Shown here in pieces: positions 26,945-30,918 of a stretch of 64,000 nt of DNA (position 1 is its first letter; every line of letters begins with the position of its first letter). The notes beneath the pieces were generated by a model. The model was not told the origin of the DNA and searched no databases. It saw nothing but the letters and a program-made list of their open reading frames with translations. This DNA comes from Magnetovibrio sp. GTDB taxonomy: Bacteria > Pseudomonadota > Alphaproteobacteria > Rhodospirillales > Magnetovibrionaceae. Position numbers and translations under genes: made by a program. The stretch lies in NCBI RefSeq assembly GCF_036568125.1, contig NZ_DATCTF010000013.1, positions 62,001 through 126,000 of the forward strand. Direction: 5' to 3'.

Positions 26945-26974
26945 TTGACCTTTGCTTTGTGGCAAAATTATAGT
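26945..26974 (+). promoter_or_regulatory. Candidate sigma-70 promoter of the DUF1538 operon
   Basis: TTGACC (26945-26950) and TATAGT (26969-26974) are separated by 18 bases, and the first small gene starts 63 bases downstream. It is one of the closest matches to consensus in the window. Its position next to chvI makes regulation by ChvI possible, but no ChvI site is visible. Confidence 0.65.
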
Positions 26975-27036
26975 GTTTACAAGGCGTCACGGGGGCACCA
27001 TGTTCAAGGTGCGCTCACAGATATTGGAGATCGACG

Positions 27037-27213
27037 ATGCAAAACGCTTATGACAGCAAAACGCGCCGCCTGGCTGCGCACAACGCATCGCATCGCCAAA
27101 AGGCTCGCGTCCGGGCCAAGGCCGCGCAGGCCCCGGTCGTCGATCCGGTGCTGATCGGCTTTGGCGTTTTGAGCCTGATCGTCGCGGCGCTCATTTCTTT
27201 GCAATCCTTCTGA
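27037..27213 (+). CDS. Small basic single-pass membrane protein, function unknown
   Basis: A 58-residue open frame beginning ATG with a GGAGA ribosome site 7 bases before it. The N-terminal 32 residues are rich in Lys, Arg and Ala (a [19 protein letters not shown] stretch). Residues about 37-56 ([20 protein letters not shown]) form one hydrophobic helix, and the chain ends QSF. The topology would be cytoplasmic basic tail, membrane, short outside end. It lies 70 bases before the first DUF1538 gene and behind a good promoter, so it may be a small subunit or regulator of that system. No family is recognised. Confidence 0.6.
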
Positions 27214-27283
27214 CGGCCCGCAAACAGGCGACGCTGACGCTAAAGCGTTGAAAGCCTGGATCCAGGGGGAGAGTTGGGCTGCT

Positions 27284-28027
27284 GTGGATGAATTTGTAAA
27301 AATCGCCAAGGGTTTGGCGCGGTTGTTCATGGACGCCGCCCGCGATTTGCTGCCGATTGTGGTGGTGATCGCTTTCTTTCAGGCGGTGGTTATTCGCGAA
27401 CCGTTTCCCAATTTGGCGGAAATCCTGGTCGGCACGCTGTTGGTGGTGCTGGGGCTGGTGTTTTTCGTACGCGGCTTGGAAATGGGCTTGTTTCCGTTGG
27501 GCGAGGCGATGGCCCAGGCGTTCGCCAAAAAAGGTAGCTTGATCTGGTTGATGGCCTTCGCCTTCTCCTTGGGTTTCGGCACCACGGTGGCCGAACCGGC
27601 GCTGATTGCGGTGGCCCAAGAAGCCGCCGACACGGCCGCCGAGGGCGGGCTGATCGGTCACGATCAAGCAAGCCTGGACGATTACGCCTATGGACTGCGC
27701 ATGACGGTGGCGCTGTCGGTGGGTTTTGCCATCGTCATCGGCGTGCTGCGCATCATCAAAGGCTGGCCGATTCAGTGGCTTATCATCGCGGGCTATCTCG
27801 CCATCGTGGCGTTGACCTTTTTCGCCCCGCCGGAAATCGTCGGTATCGCCTATGACAGCGGCGGCGTGACGACATCCACCATCACAGTTCCGTTGGTCAC
27901 CGCACTGGGCGTGGGCTTGGCGACGTCGATCCGCGGACGCAACCCGATGACCGACGGTTTCGGCTTGATTGCGTTCGCCAGCCTGACGCCGATGATGTTC
28001 GTCATGGTTTACGGGATGGTGTACTGA
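27284..28027 (+). CDS. DUF1538 membrane protein, first of a tandem pair
   Basis: A polytopic inner-membrane protein of about 247 residues (roughly six helices by hydrophobicity). Blocks it shares with its neighbour include [33 protein letters not shown] and [11 protein letters not shown]. The glycine/serine/threonine-rich segment after AYDSGG, and the acidic residues beside helices, suggest a transport or channel path, but the substrate is unknown. GTG 27284 is preferred because GGGGGAGAG precedes it; a TTG at 27248 or an ATG at 27332 is possible. The stop is one base before the next gene's start, implying coupled synthesis of two similar half-transporters. Confidence 0.85.
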
Positions 28028-28028
28028 G

Positions 28029-28832
28029 ATGATGGATTTTGCGCACCACGTTCTCAACACCGGCTGGGCGACGTTGTTCGACGTCGCGCCCATCGCGGCG
28101 ATCTTGGTGTTCTTTCAAGCCGTGGTGATTCGCAGCGTGCCGCCCAACCCGAAGCGTATTGCAGTTGGCTTTTTGTATGTGCTGATTGGCCTGACGCTGT
28201 TCTTGGTGGGGTTGGAAATGGCTCTGTTTCCGGTCGGCGAAACCATGGCCCGGCAACTGACCGATCCGCAATTTTTGGGTGGCGAGGCGCTTTTGGGACG
28301 CGTCGACTGGGCGGACTATATGTGGGTATACGCGTTCGCCGCCGCCATCGGCTTCGCCACCACGGCGGCAGAACCGTCTTTGATCGCGGTGGCGTTGAAA
28401 GCCGAACAAATTTCGGGCGGCGCGATCAACGCCAACGGCTTGCGCATGGCGGTTGCCATCGGGGTGGCGGTAGGGGTGGCGCTGGGGGCGTATCGTATTG
28501 TCAGCGGCACGCCGTTGCATTGGTATATAATAGCAGGCTATGTGGTGGTCTTGGTGCAGACCATCTGGGCCTCGAAATTCATCGTCGCGCTGGCTTACGA
28601 CAGCGGCGGCGTGACCACATCAACGGTGACGGTTCCGGTCGTCACCGCATTGGGACTGGGGTTGGCGTCGACCATACCCGGCCGCAGTCCGATATTGGAT
28701 GGATTCGGGCTGATCGCGTTCGCCAGCCTGTTTCCCATCATGGCGGTTTTGGCGTACGCGAATTTAGCCCAGTGGCTGCAAAGACGAAGACAATCGAGAG
28801 ATCAAAATGGGCAACAGGAGACGAACCCATGA
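28029..28832 (+). CDS. DUF1538 membrane protein, second of a tandem pair
   Basis: A 267-residue polytopic membrane protein that is a diverged copy of the preceding one: the same [49 protein letters not shown] and [15 protein letters not shown] blocks appear in the same order. The C-terminal tail is basic and hydrophilic (WLQRRRQSRDQNGQQE), giving a cytoplasmic end that a regulator could touch. Its stop overlaps the start of the PII-like gene as ATGA. The two copies presumably form a heterodimer or pseudo-twofold transporter; this is inference. Confidence 0.86.
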   Translation: MMDFAHHVLNTGWATLFDVAPIAAILVFFQAVVIRSVPPNPKRIAVGFLYVLIGLTLFLVGLEMALFPVGETMARQLTDPQFLGGEALLGRVDWADYMWVYAFAAAIGFATTAAEPSLIAVALKAEQISGGAINANGLRMAVAIGVAVGVALGAYRIVSGTPLHWYIIAGYVVVLVQTIWASKFIVALAYDSGGVTTSTVTVPVVTALGLGLASTIPGRSPILDGFGLIAFASLFPIMAVLAYANLAQWLQRRRQSRDQNGQQETNP

Positions 28833-29179
28833 ACCTCAAAATGATTATGGCTCTTGTAAAAGACGAGATTACGCAAACGGTCATCGATGCCGCGCGAGAA
28901 GCCGGGGCGACGGGGGCCACGGTGATCACCAGCGCGCAAGGCGAAGGGTTGAAAAAGGAAAAGACTTTTTTGGGCCTGGACCTCGCCGCACAACGTGACA
29001 TCATCTTGCTGATGGTGGCCGAACCCAAGGCACGCGAAATCTTGGAAACCATCGCCAAGGCCGGTAAGTTTGACGAAGAACCCGGCGCCGGAATCGCATG
29101 TCAGATCGCGCTGGAAGACGCGGTCGGTCTGTCTACCCAATTGCCGACATTGATTGATGAAGTTGAGAAAGAGATATGA
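28829..29179 (+). CDS. PII-like signal transduction protein
   Basis: A 116-residue protein with the GlnB/GlnK ferredoxin-like pattern: a first strand MIMALVKDE, a helix VIDAAREAGATGATVI, and the late KAGKFDEEPGAGIACQIALED, which corresponds to the C-terminal nucleotide-loop segment of PII proteins. The central T-loop is short and carries KKEKTFLGLDLAAQ, with no uridylylation tyrosine context. Divergent PII proteins of this kind usually bind a nucleotide and control a partner transporter. The start overlaps the DUF1538 stop and its stop overlaps the CBS gene start, so the partner is most likely the DUF1538 pair. Confidence 0.82.
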   Translation: MNLKMIMALVKDEITQTVIDAAREAGATGATVITSAQGEGLKKEKTFLGLDLAAQRDIILLMVAEPKAREILETIAKAGKFDEEPGAGIACQIALEDAVGLSTQLPTLIDEVEKEI

Positions 29180-29577
29180 GCGAAAAAAGCTATGTCAAAG
29201 TCGAGGACCTCATGTCCACGACGATCGCAACCATCGACGCCACCGCCACGGTGCAAGAAGCCGTGGTCCGTATGCGCGACGCGGGGGTCAGTTCCTTGGT
29301 TGCGGAACGCCGCGACGCGTCGGATGAATACGGGTTGGTGGTCGTTTCCGACATCGCCAAGCACGTGATCGCGGAAAATCGCTCGCCGGAACGCGTCAAC
29401 GTCTACGAAATCATGTCCAAGCCGGTGCTGACGGTGCCCAAGGACATGAACATCCGTTATGCGGTGCGCTTGTTGGTGCAATTCGGCCTCAGCCGCGGTT
29501 TGGTGGTGGACGAGCACCGCGCCCCGGTTGGAATCGTCACGTTACGTGACATGGTTTTGCGCAATATCGATGAATGA
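29176..29577 (+). CDS. CBS-pair domain protein
   Basis: A 133-residue protein made of a single Bateman module: the first CBS motif begins at VEDLMSTTIATIDATATV and the second at VYEIMSKPVLTVPKDM, ending in GIVTLRDMVL. CBS pairs bind adenosine nucleotides and regulate channels and enzymes. No other domain is present, so it acts in trans. The ATGA overlap with the PII-like gene suggests two nucleotide sensors made together with the DUF1538 membrane pair. Confidence 0.9.
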   Translation: MSEKSYVKVEDLMSTTIATIDATATVQEAVVRMRDAGVSSLVAERRDASDEYGLVVVSDIAKHVIAENRSPERVNVYEIMSKPVLTVPKDMNIRYAVRLLVQFGLSRGLVVDEHRAPVGIVTLRDMVLRNIDE

Positions 29578-29583
29578 GGCCTC

Positions 29584-30333
29584 GTGAGCAGCGCGTCCGC
29601 CGAAACCGCCCGTCTGGCCCGTCTGATTGCGCGTGGGGCGCTGAAAGGCGCGTTGGCGACCAATCGCCGCGCCGCCCGGCCGGACGCTAAGCACGGTTTC
29701 GGGGCGCAGCCCTATGTTTCCAAGGTCGGCGTGGCGACGGATTTGAGCGGCGCACCATTGTTTTTATTTTCGACGCTGGCCGCCCACACCCAGGATTTGC
29801 TTGCCGATCCGCGCGCGGCATTGTTGCTGGAAGCTCCGACAACCACCGCAAATCCCCTCGAAGGCGCGCGCTGCACCTTGGTGGGGCGGGTCGAGCAGCT
29901 TGTCGGTGTCGAATCGGATGCGGCGCGCGCTCTCTACCTGACGCGCCATCCCGGAGCCTCGCTGTACGCTGGGTTCGGCGATTTCTCGTTGTGGCGTCTG
30001 CACATCGAAAAAGTTCACTACGTTGGTGGGTTCGGCCGTGCCAAATGGGCCAAAAGTGGCGAATATCTCTGCGCGGCCGATGGCTTGGCGGATGCTCAAG
30101 CGCGCATCGTTGCGGCGCTGAACGGCGCAAAACGCAACGATTTGCAGGCTGTTTTTGCCCATCATACCGGGCGTTCGGGACGTGGGCAGACGGTCTTGGG
30201 CCTTGATGCCGACGGATTGATTGTGGTGGGGGGAAAAGGCGTTCAAACGCGCATCGACTTTTCTTCACCGGCCCGCGATGTGCGTGGTTGGCAGGCGCGT
30301 TTTCGATCATTGGTCAAAAAAACTCGAGCCTAA
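29584..30333 (+). CDS. Pyridoxamine-5'-phosphate-oxidase-fold protein, HugZ-like
   Basis: A 249-residue protein with a split-barrel flavin-binding domain (ARGALKGALAT start, YVSKVGVATDLSGAPLFLFSTLAAHT, then the LVGRVE strand) and a C-terminal DUF2470-like domain. HugZ members use this pair to bind and degrade haem; others bind flavin or F420. The histidines needed for haem use cannot be judged by eye. It starts with GTG six bases after the CBS gene and so is probably the last gene of the DUF1538 operon, though its link to transport is not obvious. Confidence 0.82.
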   Translation: MSSASAETARLARLIARGALKGALATNRRAARPDAKHGFGAQPYVSKVGVATDLSGAPLFLFSTLAAHTQDLLADPRAALLLEAPTTTANPLEGARCTLVGRVEQLVGVESDAARALYLTRHPGASLYAGFGDFSLWRLHIEKVHYVGGFGRAKWAKSGEYLCAADGLADAQARIVAALNGAKRNDLQAVFAHHTGRSGRGQTVLGLDADGLIVVGGKGVQTRIDFSSPARDVRGWQARFRSLVKKTRA

Positions 30334-30450: not shown

Positions 30451-30840
30451 ATGGCCCTTGCCACCATTCTTGCCGTGCTTGCCTTCGCCATCGCGCTGGT
30501 GGCGTTGTGGTTGACCAGTGACATCGTTAAGAAGGTCGAAGGCCAAAACGAAAAGTTCTTGCGTGCACACCTTTCGTCCTTGCGCGAAGAAATTCGCGAT
30601 TTGGACAAAGCGTTGGGCAAAACCACCAAGATTTCAAAGGGCCATACCGAAGTGCAGGTGCTTTTCGACAAGCGTCTCAACGATCACACCAAGGAATTGT
30701 CCGATATTCGCGAGCGCATCGCCTTGCTGGCGGATCAATTCGAAGAGCTGGACCGCTCCATCCCGTCGCGCTACCGCGTGCGAGTGGTCAAGGCCGATCC
30801 CACGCCCGCAGGTAAAAGTCAAAAGCCGAGCATTCAATAG
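30451..30840 (+). CDS. Small membrane-anchored coiled-coil protein, function unknown
   Basis: About 129 residues: one N-terminal transmembrane helix ([20 protein letters not shown]) followed by a charged, heptad-like region rich in Glu, Lys and Leu ([20 protein letters not shown] onward) that looks like a coiled coil, and a short basic proline-containing tail. The ATG at 30451 gives a clean membrane anchor; a TTG start at 30394 would add 19 residues, and neither has a strong ribosome site. It stands alone between the HugZ-like gene and the pckG terminator. No family is recognised. Confidence 0.7.
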
Positions 30841-30894
30841 CCCGGCTCGGTCTTTGGGATCGAACGAAAACCCACCCGCGAATCACAGGTTTCG

Positions 30895-30918
30895 CCACCC
30901 CATTGGGGTGGTTTTTTT
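30895..30918 (+). terminator. Rho-independent terminator upstream of pckG
   Basis: The perfect stem CCACCCC/GGGGTGG with a three-base loop is followed by seven T. It lies 55 bases after the coiled-coil gene and isolates pckG from upstream transcription. Confidence 0.93.

Follow-up and report, generated by a model that had tools for sequence, protein, structure and literature searches.

A PII-type protein gene accompanies UmpAB-like DUF1538 gene pairs in several phyla and may encode a dedicated controller of cation/proton antiport

A 64,000-nucleotide stretch of Magnetovibrio sp. DNA (contig NZ_DATCTF010000013.1 of assembly GCF_036568125.1, positions 62,001 to 126,000; referred to here as the window) carries a compact plus-strand run of a 58-residue open reading frame (ORF), two DUF1538 membrane protein genes, a PII-type gene, a CBS-pair gene and a HugZ-like gene. 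Of 140 DUF1538 modules that could be assessed, drawn from several phyla, 135 had a PII gene directly downstream on the same strand. The DUF1538-PII partnership is real and widespread, and one half of it has a known function. It is probable, at roughly 0.6, that umpA-umpB-PII-CBS specifies an UmpAB-type antiporter under a dedicated, adenine-nucleotide-sensing PII controller, with the CBS protein as a second sensor.

The UmpA-like gene (27284-28027) and the UmpB-like gene (28029-28832), the latter coding for a basic hydrophilic C-terminus, scored 235.4 bits (E value, 5.6e-70) and 226 bits (4.2e-67), respectively, against DUF1538 (PF07556; Pfam gathering cut-off, 22.6 bits). The PII-type protein (28829-29179) scored 39.7 bits (6.7e-10) against P-II (PF00543; cut-off, 25 bits), and the stand-alone CBS-pair protein (29176-29577) scored 66.8 bits (2.2e-18) against PF00571, with two stretches over the cut-off. 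For umpA, a GTG start at 27284 that follows a GGGGGAG motif looks better than the listed TTG at 27248. The two DUF1538 genes are separated by 1 base, the umpB-PII and PII-CBS junctions are ATGA overlaps, and 6 bases lie between the CBS and HugZ-like genes. Coordinates and Pfam bore out the gene set, families and junctions proposed in an initial annotation of this DNA, with the 58-residue ORF having no Pfam family. The genome (95% complete) contains a single DUF1538 pair and four PII genes.

The initial annotation had staked its proposal on an association of DUF1538 with PII-like genes elsewhere, and that association was upheld. The first set comprised the best 80 of at least 591 confirmed DUF1538 stretches, of which 77 loci run past umpB and 3 end at a contig edge. 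Because these loci (numbered with L below) are close relatives, 56 modules hand-picked for diversity or oddity and 7 from nine plasmid records were added. PII was directly downstream in 77/77, 51/56 and 7/7 modules of the three sets, in a census that includes one pair of identical rows. A PII gene was also present at 28 of the 29 best-scoring DUF1538 loci, besides the window's own, in a sample of the phylum, several of which were already in the census. All 17 further modules (L205, L206 and L219 to L233) had PII; CBS was present in 11, two PIIs without CBS in 5, and one module was cut within PII. DUF1538-PII loci span Pseudomonadota, Nitrospirae, Saprospiraceae, Desulfopila and its kin, and Bacillota. 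Longer shadow frames hide PII or CBS in several loci, and calls were repeated on stop-to-stop frames. None of the loci scanned had DUF1538 fused to PII or CBS in a single ORF. One locus (L119:2999-7214, minus strand) holds an array of six: a fused DUF1538, PII, CBS, PII and two separate DUF1538 genes.

The association was also apparent in the reverse direction. A profile of umpAB-linked PIIs (E ≤ 1e-12) matched 117 of 299 genomes of the phylum, the window's own included. This linked-type PII was present in 112 of 116 genomes with DUF1538 versus 5 of 183 without it (Fisher P = 3e-70, a value overstated because of relatedness among the genomes and the large share of one family). Nineteen families held both DUF1538 and the linked-type PII. 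In three genomes of family f48 (L188, L189 and L190), PII and CBS genes overlap as a pair on a contig that has no DUF1538. DUF1538 is on other contigs in f48 genomes, with other genes following umpB in G084 and G116, and genome G156 has DUF1538 only as a fragment.

The initial annotation had assigned no substrate or mechanism to DUF1538. This fails, as the DUF1538 pair UmpAB of Halomonas zhaodongensis has been published as a pH-dependent Na+(Li+, K+)/H+ antiporter in everted vesicles (Meng 2017, PMC5484666). The suggestion that the two proteins form a two-part transporter gained support from the same source, in which this homologous UmpA-UmpB pair was recovered as a heterodimer by co-immunoprecipitation (PMC5484666). 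The Halomonas umpAB genes were active in Escherichia coli from a clone that carried neither PII nor CBS, and the terms PII, P-II and CBS are absent from the main text of that paper (PMC5484666). No locus of the sets above was recognized as Halomonas. The window pair resembles Halomonas UmpAB in being an adjacent homologous DUF1538 pair with seven predicted transmembrane segments in each protein and a longer UmpB with a hydrophilic C-terminus.

The motifs AEP and DSGGVTT were invariant in UmpA-like DUF1538 proteins (16 rows). One locus near the window type (L105:6959-8632, plus strand) has split-type UmpA and UmpB naturally joined in one chain. The AlphaFold2 model of this fusion (44 rows) had a mean predicted local distance difference test score (pLDDT) of 90.2 and a predicted template modeling score (pTM) of 0.89; its halves are alike, and in each of them helices break at AEP and where DSGGVTT ends. 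UmpA is basic at its N-terminus and UmpB at its C-terminus, which hints at a possible inverted 7+7 repeat. Neither Foldseek nor VIA gave a clear match to the DUF1538 fold, although a middling or missing match does not show that a fold is new or different. Sequence searches of the PDB with DUF1538 gave no match (one sequence, E ≤ 1; profile, E ≤ 10). A 2026 machine-learning study ranked DUF1538 within its 20 leading genome features for growth pH, and the main text of that study mentions neither PII nor P-II. Passages in papers on cable bacteria view UmpAB homologs as possible salt adaptations.

The umpAB-linked PIIs differ from GlnB-type proteins in a consistent manner. Among 114 single PIIs compared with GlnB, the first Gly and the Thr29 equivalent were kept in 114, and the Gly37 equivalent and the second B-loop Gly in 112; by sequence, these PIIs retain the adenine pocket. 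Lys90 and Arg101 are presumably triphosphate contacts of GlnB and GlnK, and Arg103 is likewise taken to be a contact. Lys was found in the Lys90 column in 0 of 158 umpAB-linked PII domains (2 gaps) and Arg in the Arg101 column in 0 of 158 (14 gaps). The window PII has Thr or Gln near the Arg103 column and no Arg. The motif RG-x-[EQ]Y, which we take to be the Tyr51-type T-loop uridylylation motif of GlnB and GlnK, was likewise present in 0 of 158 domains, and in both GlnB-type controls from the window's genome. A different T-loop motif, [TS]F[FLM][GSN][LI], was found in 88 of 92 CBS-linked single PIIs, and the Thr29 equivalent in all 92. Because the adenine pocket is kept and Lys90 and Arg101 are lost, an adenine nucleotide without a strong triphosphate contact is the favored ligand, and the T-loop tip the favored contact with the partner, for PIIs of the window type at least. 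PDB entry 9p1x, the best sequence match to the PII profile, has a GlnB-like B-loop and was not taken to be of the same type.

The CBS gene was present in 93 of 140 assessable modules, including 74/77 of the best-80 set, and was confined within one large clade of the tree. Conserved residues of the CBS protein include G53 (91/94), D59 (86/94) and G119 (92/92). Of the two trans-acting nucleotide sensors that would gate the transporter in the initial proposal, PII is nearly constant and CBS accessory, so that dual control would be no general rule.

We infer that the window pair moves the same ions as Halomonas UmpAB and that the PII protein binds it; what PII binds as ligand, which way it controls the antiporter and what CBS does are offered on the same footing. 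UmpA and UmpB together would form a cation/proton antiporter exchanging Na+, Li+ or K+ against H+. The PII trimer would be a dedicated cytoplasmic controller that binds an adenine nucleotide, with AMP, ADP or a cyclic nucleotide more likely than Mg-ATP with 2-oxoglutarate. Its short, conserved, hydrophobic T-loop might be pressed on the antiporter and so change or block exchange. In the one large clade that has it, the CBS protein may act as a second adenosine-nucleotide sensor on PII or on the basic tail of UmpB. Exchange of Na+, K+ and H+, and hence pH and salt balance, would in this way be matched to the energy or messenger state of the cell. The Halomonas clone works without a PII or CBS gene, and PII and CBS should therefore be modulators rather than parts of the transport path.

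Similar arrangements are known for other transporters, and two known secondary transporters, AmtB and SbtA, are blocked by T-loops of PII proteins. In the SbtA-SbtB system the T-loop of the PII-like SbtB enters the cleft of the bicarbonate transporter (PMC8352866). SbtA-SbtB resembles the window system in that a Na+-linked secondary transporter is encoded together with a PII-like sensor, as a unit of two genes, but SbtA belongs to another transporter family. Similarity to SbtB did not extend over the whole chain; SbtB matched the PII profile over only 39 positions (4-42 of 100). AmtB-GlnK likewise has a transporter gene with its own PII and supplies a model for a T-loop block. It differs in that AmtB is an ammonium channel and in that the umpAB-linked PIIs have neither the Tyr51-type motif nor the contacts made by Lys90 and Arg101 in GlnB-type PIIs. 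CLC is one transporter regulated by CBS domains. In such proteins the CBS pair serves as the nucleotide sensor of a membrane protein, as proposed here, but it is part of the same chain, whereas in the window it is a separate protein beside PII. Review passages describe MgtE and CorB as further CBS-regulated transporters, the T-loop of GlnK as plugging the AmtB path, and AmtB/Amt1, NrtABCD, UrtABCDE and SbtA as the transporter targets of PII (PMC10710835). No paper describing a DUF1538/UmpAB-PII pairing was found in a search that mostly did not extend to subscription journals, and a prior description is possible. PII proteins are very widespread signal proteins, and here PII-controlled transport would extend to an antiporter family. 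If this is correct, UmpAB is a class of PII target outside those named in the review passages (PMC10710835), and several phyla would have a direct link between an adenine-nucleotide signal and their pH and Na+/K+ balance.

Some DUF1538 modules are accompanied by more than one PII domain. Two PII domains, as neighbors or in one chain, were found in 18 census modules, all without CBS. Three PII domains in one frame were found in L166:3827-4933 (minus strand) and L169:6501-7640 (plus strand), both beside a fused DUF1538. Pfam recognized one stretch in the L169 chain and none over the cut-off in L166, so that the calls of a third domain rest on an iterated PII profile. AlphaFold2 gave the L169 triple-PII chain a pLDDT of 76.3 and a pTM of 0.77, which is suggestive of a trimeric arrangement in these PIIs, and the low-confidence stretches were read as linkers and T-loops. 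With single domains, Foldseek found PII structures at a probability of 1.00 (E values of 2.3e-4 or weaker), with six sulfur oxygenase reductase chains (TM-scores near 0.2) on top in the same search. It is reasonable, although unproven, to regard the triple PII as a covalent pseudo-trimer. Five loci on Bacillota plasmids (L136, L139, L140, L141 and L142) have two fused DUF1538 domains and, after them, a single chain holding two PII domains; this chain is annotated as a P-II family nitrogen regulator in the three Bacillota plasmid records with gene tables. Besides the split pair, two genomes of the window's own family (L227 and L229) carry another DUF1538 gene that is distant and fused (frames of 623 and 657 residues), with two PIIs next to it.

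The chances appear about even that DUF1538/UmpAB as a whole is a cation/proton antiporter family, each member with its own PII controller, which evolved from a single protein to tandem, fused double and single-chain triple forms. If so, the triple PII would be a covalent PII ring able to signal asymmetrically, and the double and triple chains would be a natural handle on asymmetry in the PII ring. CBS was absent from 20/20 multi-PII census modules (the L119 array set aside) and from 5/5 later ones. Multiple PIIs required 3 changes on the tree and CBS 10, in a tree built by a quick method with 55 of 134 inner branches open and long branches meeting. Because multiple PIIs need only 3 changes and CBS lies inside one large clade, there are few independent events, and the notion that one slot is filled by either CBS or a second PII was kept as an idea only.

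Several observations weigh against control of an UmpAB-type antiporter by PII and CBS. Five of the 140 modules had no downstream PII (L124, L125, L163, L175 and the second module of L119, which has PII upstream instead). Arg was kept in the Arg103 column in 5 of 158 PII domains, with 38 gapped and the alignment unsure there. Where single PIIs have no CBS partner, only 13 of 22 show the T-loop motif of the CBS-linked ones, and none of the 36 domains from double modules does. Repeat 2 of the CBS protein keeps its S/T and D residues only in part, which makes the CBS ligand less certain. The window pair missed the NCBIfam equivalog cut-offs for UmpA (NF041627; 369.3 versus 490 bits) and UmpB (NF041628; 321.2 versus 500 bits) and is therefore a relative of UmpAB rather than a certified equivalog, so that its ion specificity may differ; the UmpA cut-off was reached in 0 of 26 other genomes. 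Lastly, 20 places with linked-type PIIs were inspected, most of them chosen for having no DUF1538 nearby, although two (L205 and L206) proved to be linked. Related PIIs were found near argB- and/or gshA-like genes (L187, L191 to L194, L196 and L202, in families f38, f49 and f27), upstream of dusB-, ntrB- and ntrC-like genes (L198, L200, L201 and L204) and right after a mutS-like gene (L195 and L197), the gene names being readings of translations. Thus, not every member of this PII group serves an antiporter.

PIIs commonly act on enzymes. This, together with the PII in 5 of 183 genomes without DUF1538 and the relatives that several genomes have near argB-, gshA- or dusB-ntrBC-like genes, would suit an arrangement in which PII and CBS are cotranscribed with umpAB and report the same stress but do not touch the antiporter, their targets being, for example, transcription or enzymes of nitrogen or arginine metabolism. 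We consider this unlikely, because adjacency in 135/140 modules over several phyla and co-occurrence in 112/116 genomes, even where the genes are apart, better fit a role specific to DUF1538. Somewhat less likely still is that window-type pairs mainly carry something else, for instance bicarbonate or an organic ion together with Na+; antiport in E. coli would then be one facet, and PII would gate uptake as SbtB does on SbtA. Scores below the UmpA and UmpB cut-offs, in a family that is broad and deeply split in the tree, would be in keeping with another substrate. Weak Foldseek rows for DUF1538 also include the Na+/dicarboxylate symporter 4f35 (E = 0.025), but it stands amid many unrelated carriers and these rows are too weak to use; furthermore, measurements on everted vesicles showed antiport of Na+, Li+ and K+ by Halomonas UmpAB (PMC5484666). 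DUF1538 genes occur on plasmid records too, as might be expected if the genes traveled together, by inheritance or horizontal transfer, as a cassette whose members are functionally unrelated. However, the pairing persists where DUF1538 genes are fused or duplicated, where PII is multiplied and where the partners sit on separate contigs, and a cassette of this kind is very improbable. Control of an UmpAB-type antiporter by its own PII remains the preferred explanation.

The remaining genes of the window run were not conserved with the DUF1538 pair. The 58-residue ORF (27037-27213) encodes a basic protein with one C-terminal hydrophobic segment. No phmmer homolog of it was found at an E value of 1e-3 in the best-80 loci, and a tblastn match was found only in L222 (49%). 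At the same position in L219, L220 and L221 there are short ORFs that code for a hydrophobic stretch at the C-terminus, as judged by eye, and the 58-residue protein looks like a fast-diverging small protein at the genus level. The CREG/PNPOx (HugZ-like) protein (29584-30333) matched CREG_beta-barrel (PF13883; 7.1e-20) above the cut-off and missed the cut-off of the HutZ model TIGR04110 (19.2 versus 225). A HugZ-like gene was adjacent in 2 of 80 best-set loci (L036 and L075), and in 6 of 7 same-family loci reaching that far (L219 to L224; not L225). The initial annotation had listed both genes in the run, but their distribution (2/80 loci for the HugZ-like gene and 0/80 for homologs of the 58-residue protein) ruled them out as core parts.

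The consensus-like promoter of the initial annotation, a weak match to promoter elements (TTGACC-18-TATAGT, 26945-26974, plus strand; 10 of 12 positions), was dropped, since two such sites in the region versus 1.8 expected in shuffles is the level of chance. Downstream of the HugZ-like gene, a short protein kept across the family (30451-30840, plus strand), whose membership in the unit is uncertain, precedes a terminator-like hairpin of eight pairs, six of them GC, followed by a T run (30894-30912, plus strand); 10 such hairpin sites were found in the region versus 7.1 expected. Among 60 relatives searched, 37 had an UmpA match, including 5/5 in the genus besides the window's own. The order chvI-like, umpA, umpB, PII, CBS, HugZ-like, short gene, pckA-like was kept in L219 to L224, with L226 cut within PII; the names ChvG, ChvI and PckA come from reading the translations.

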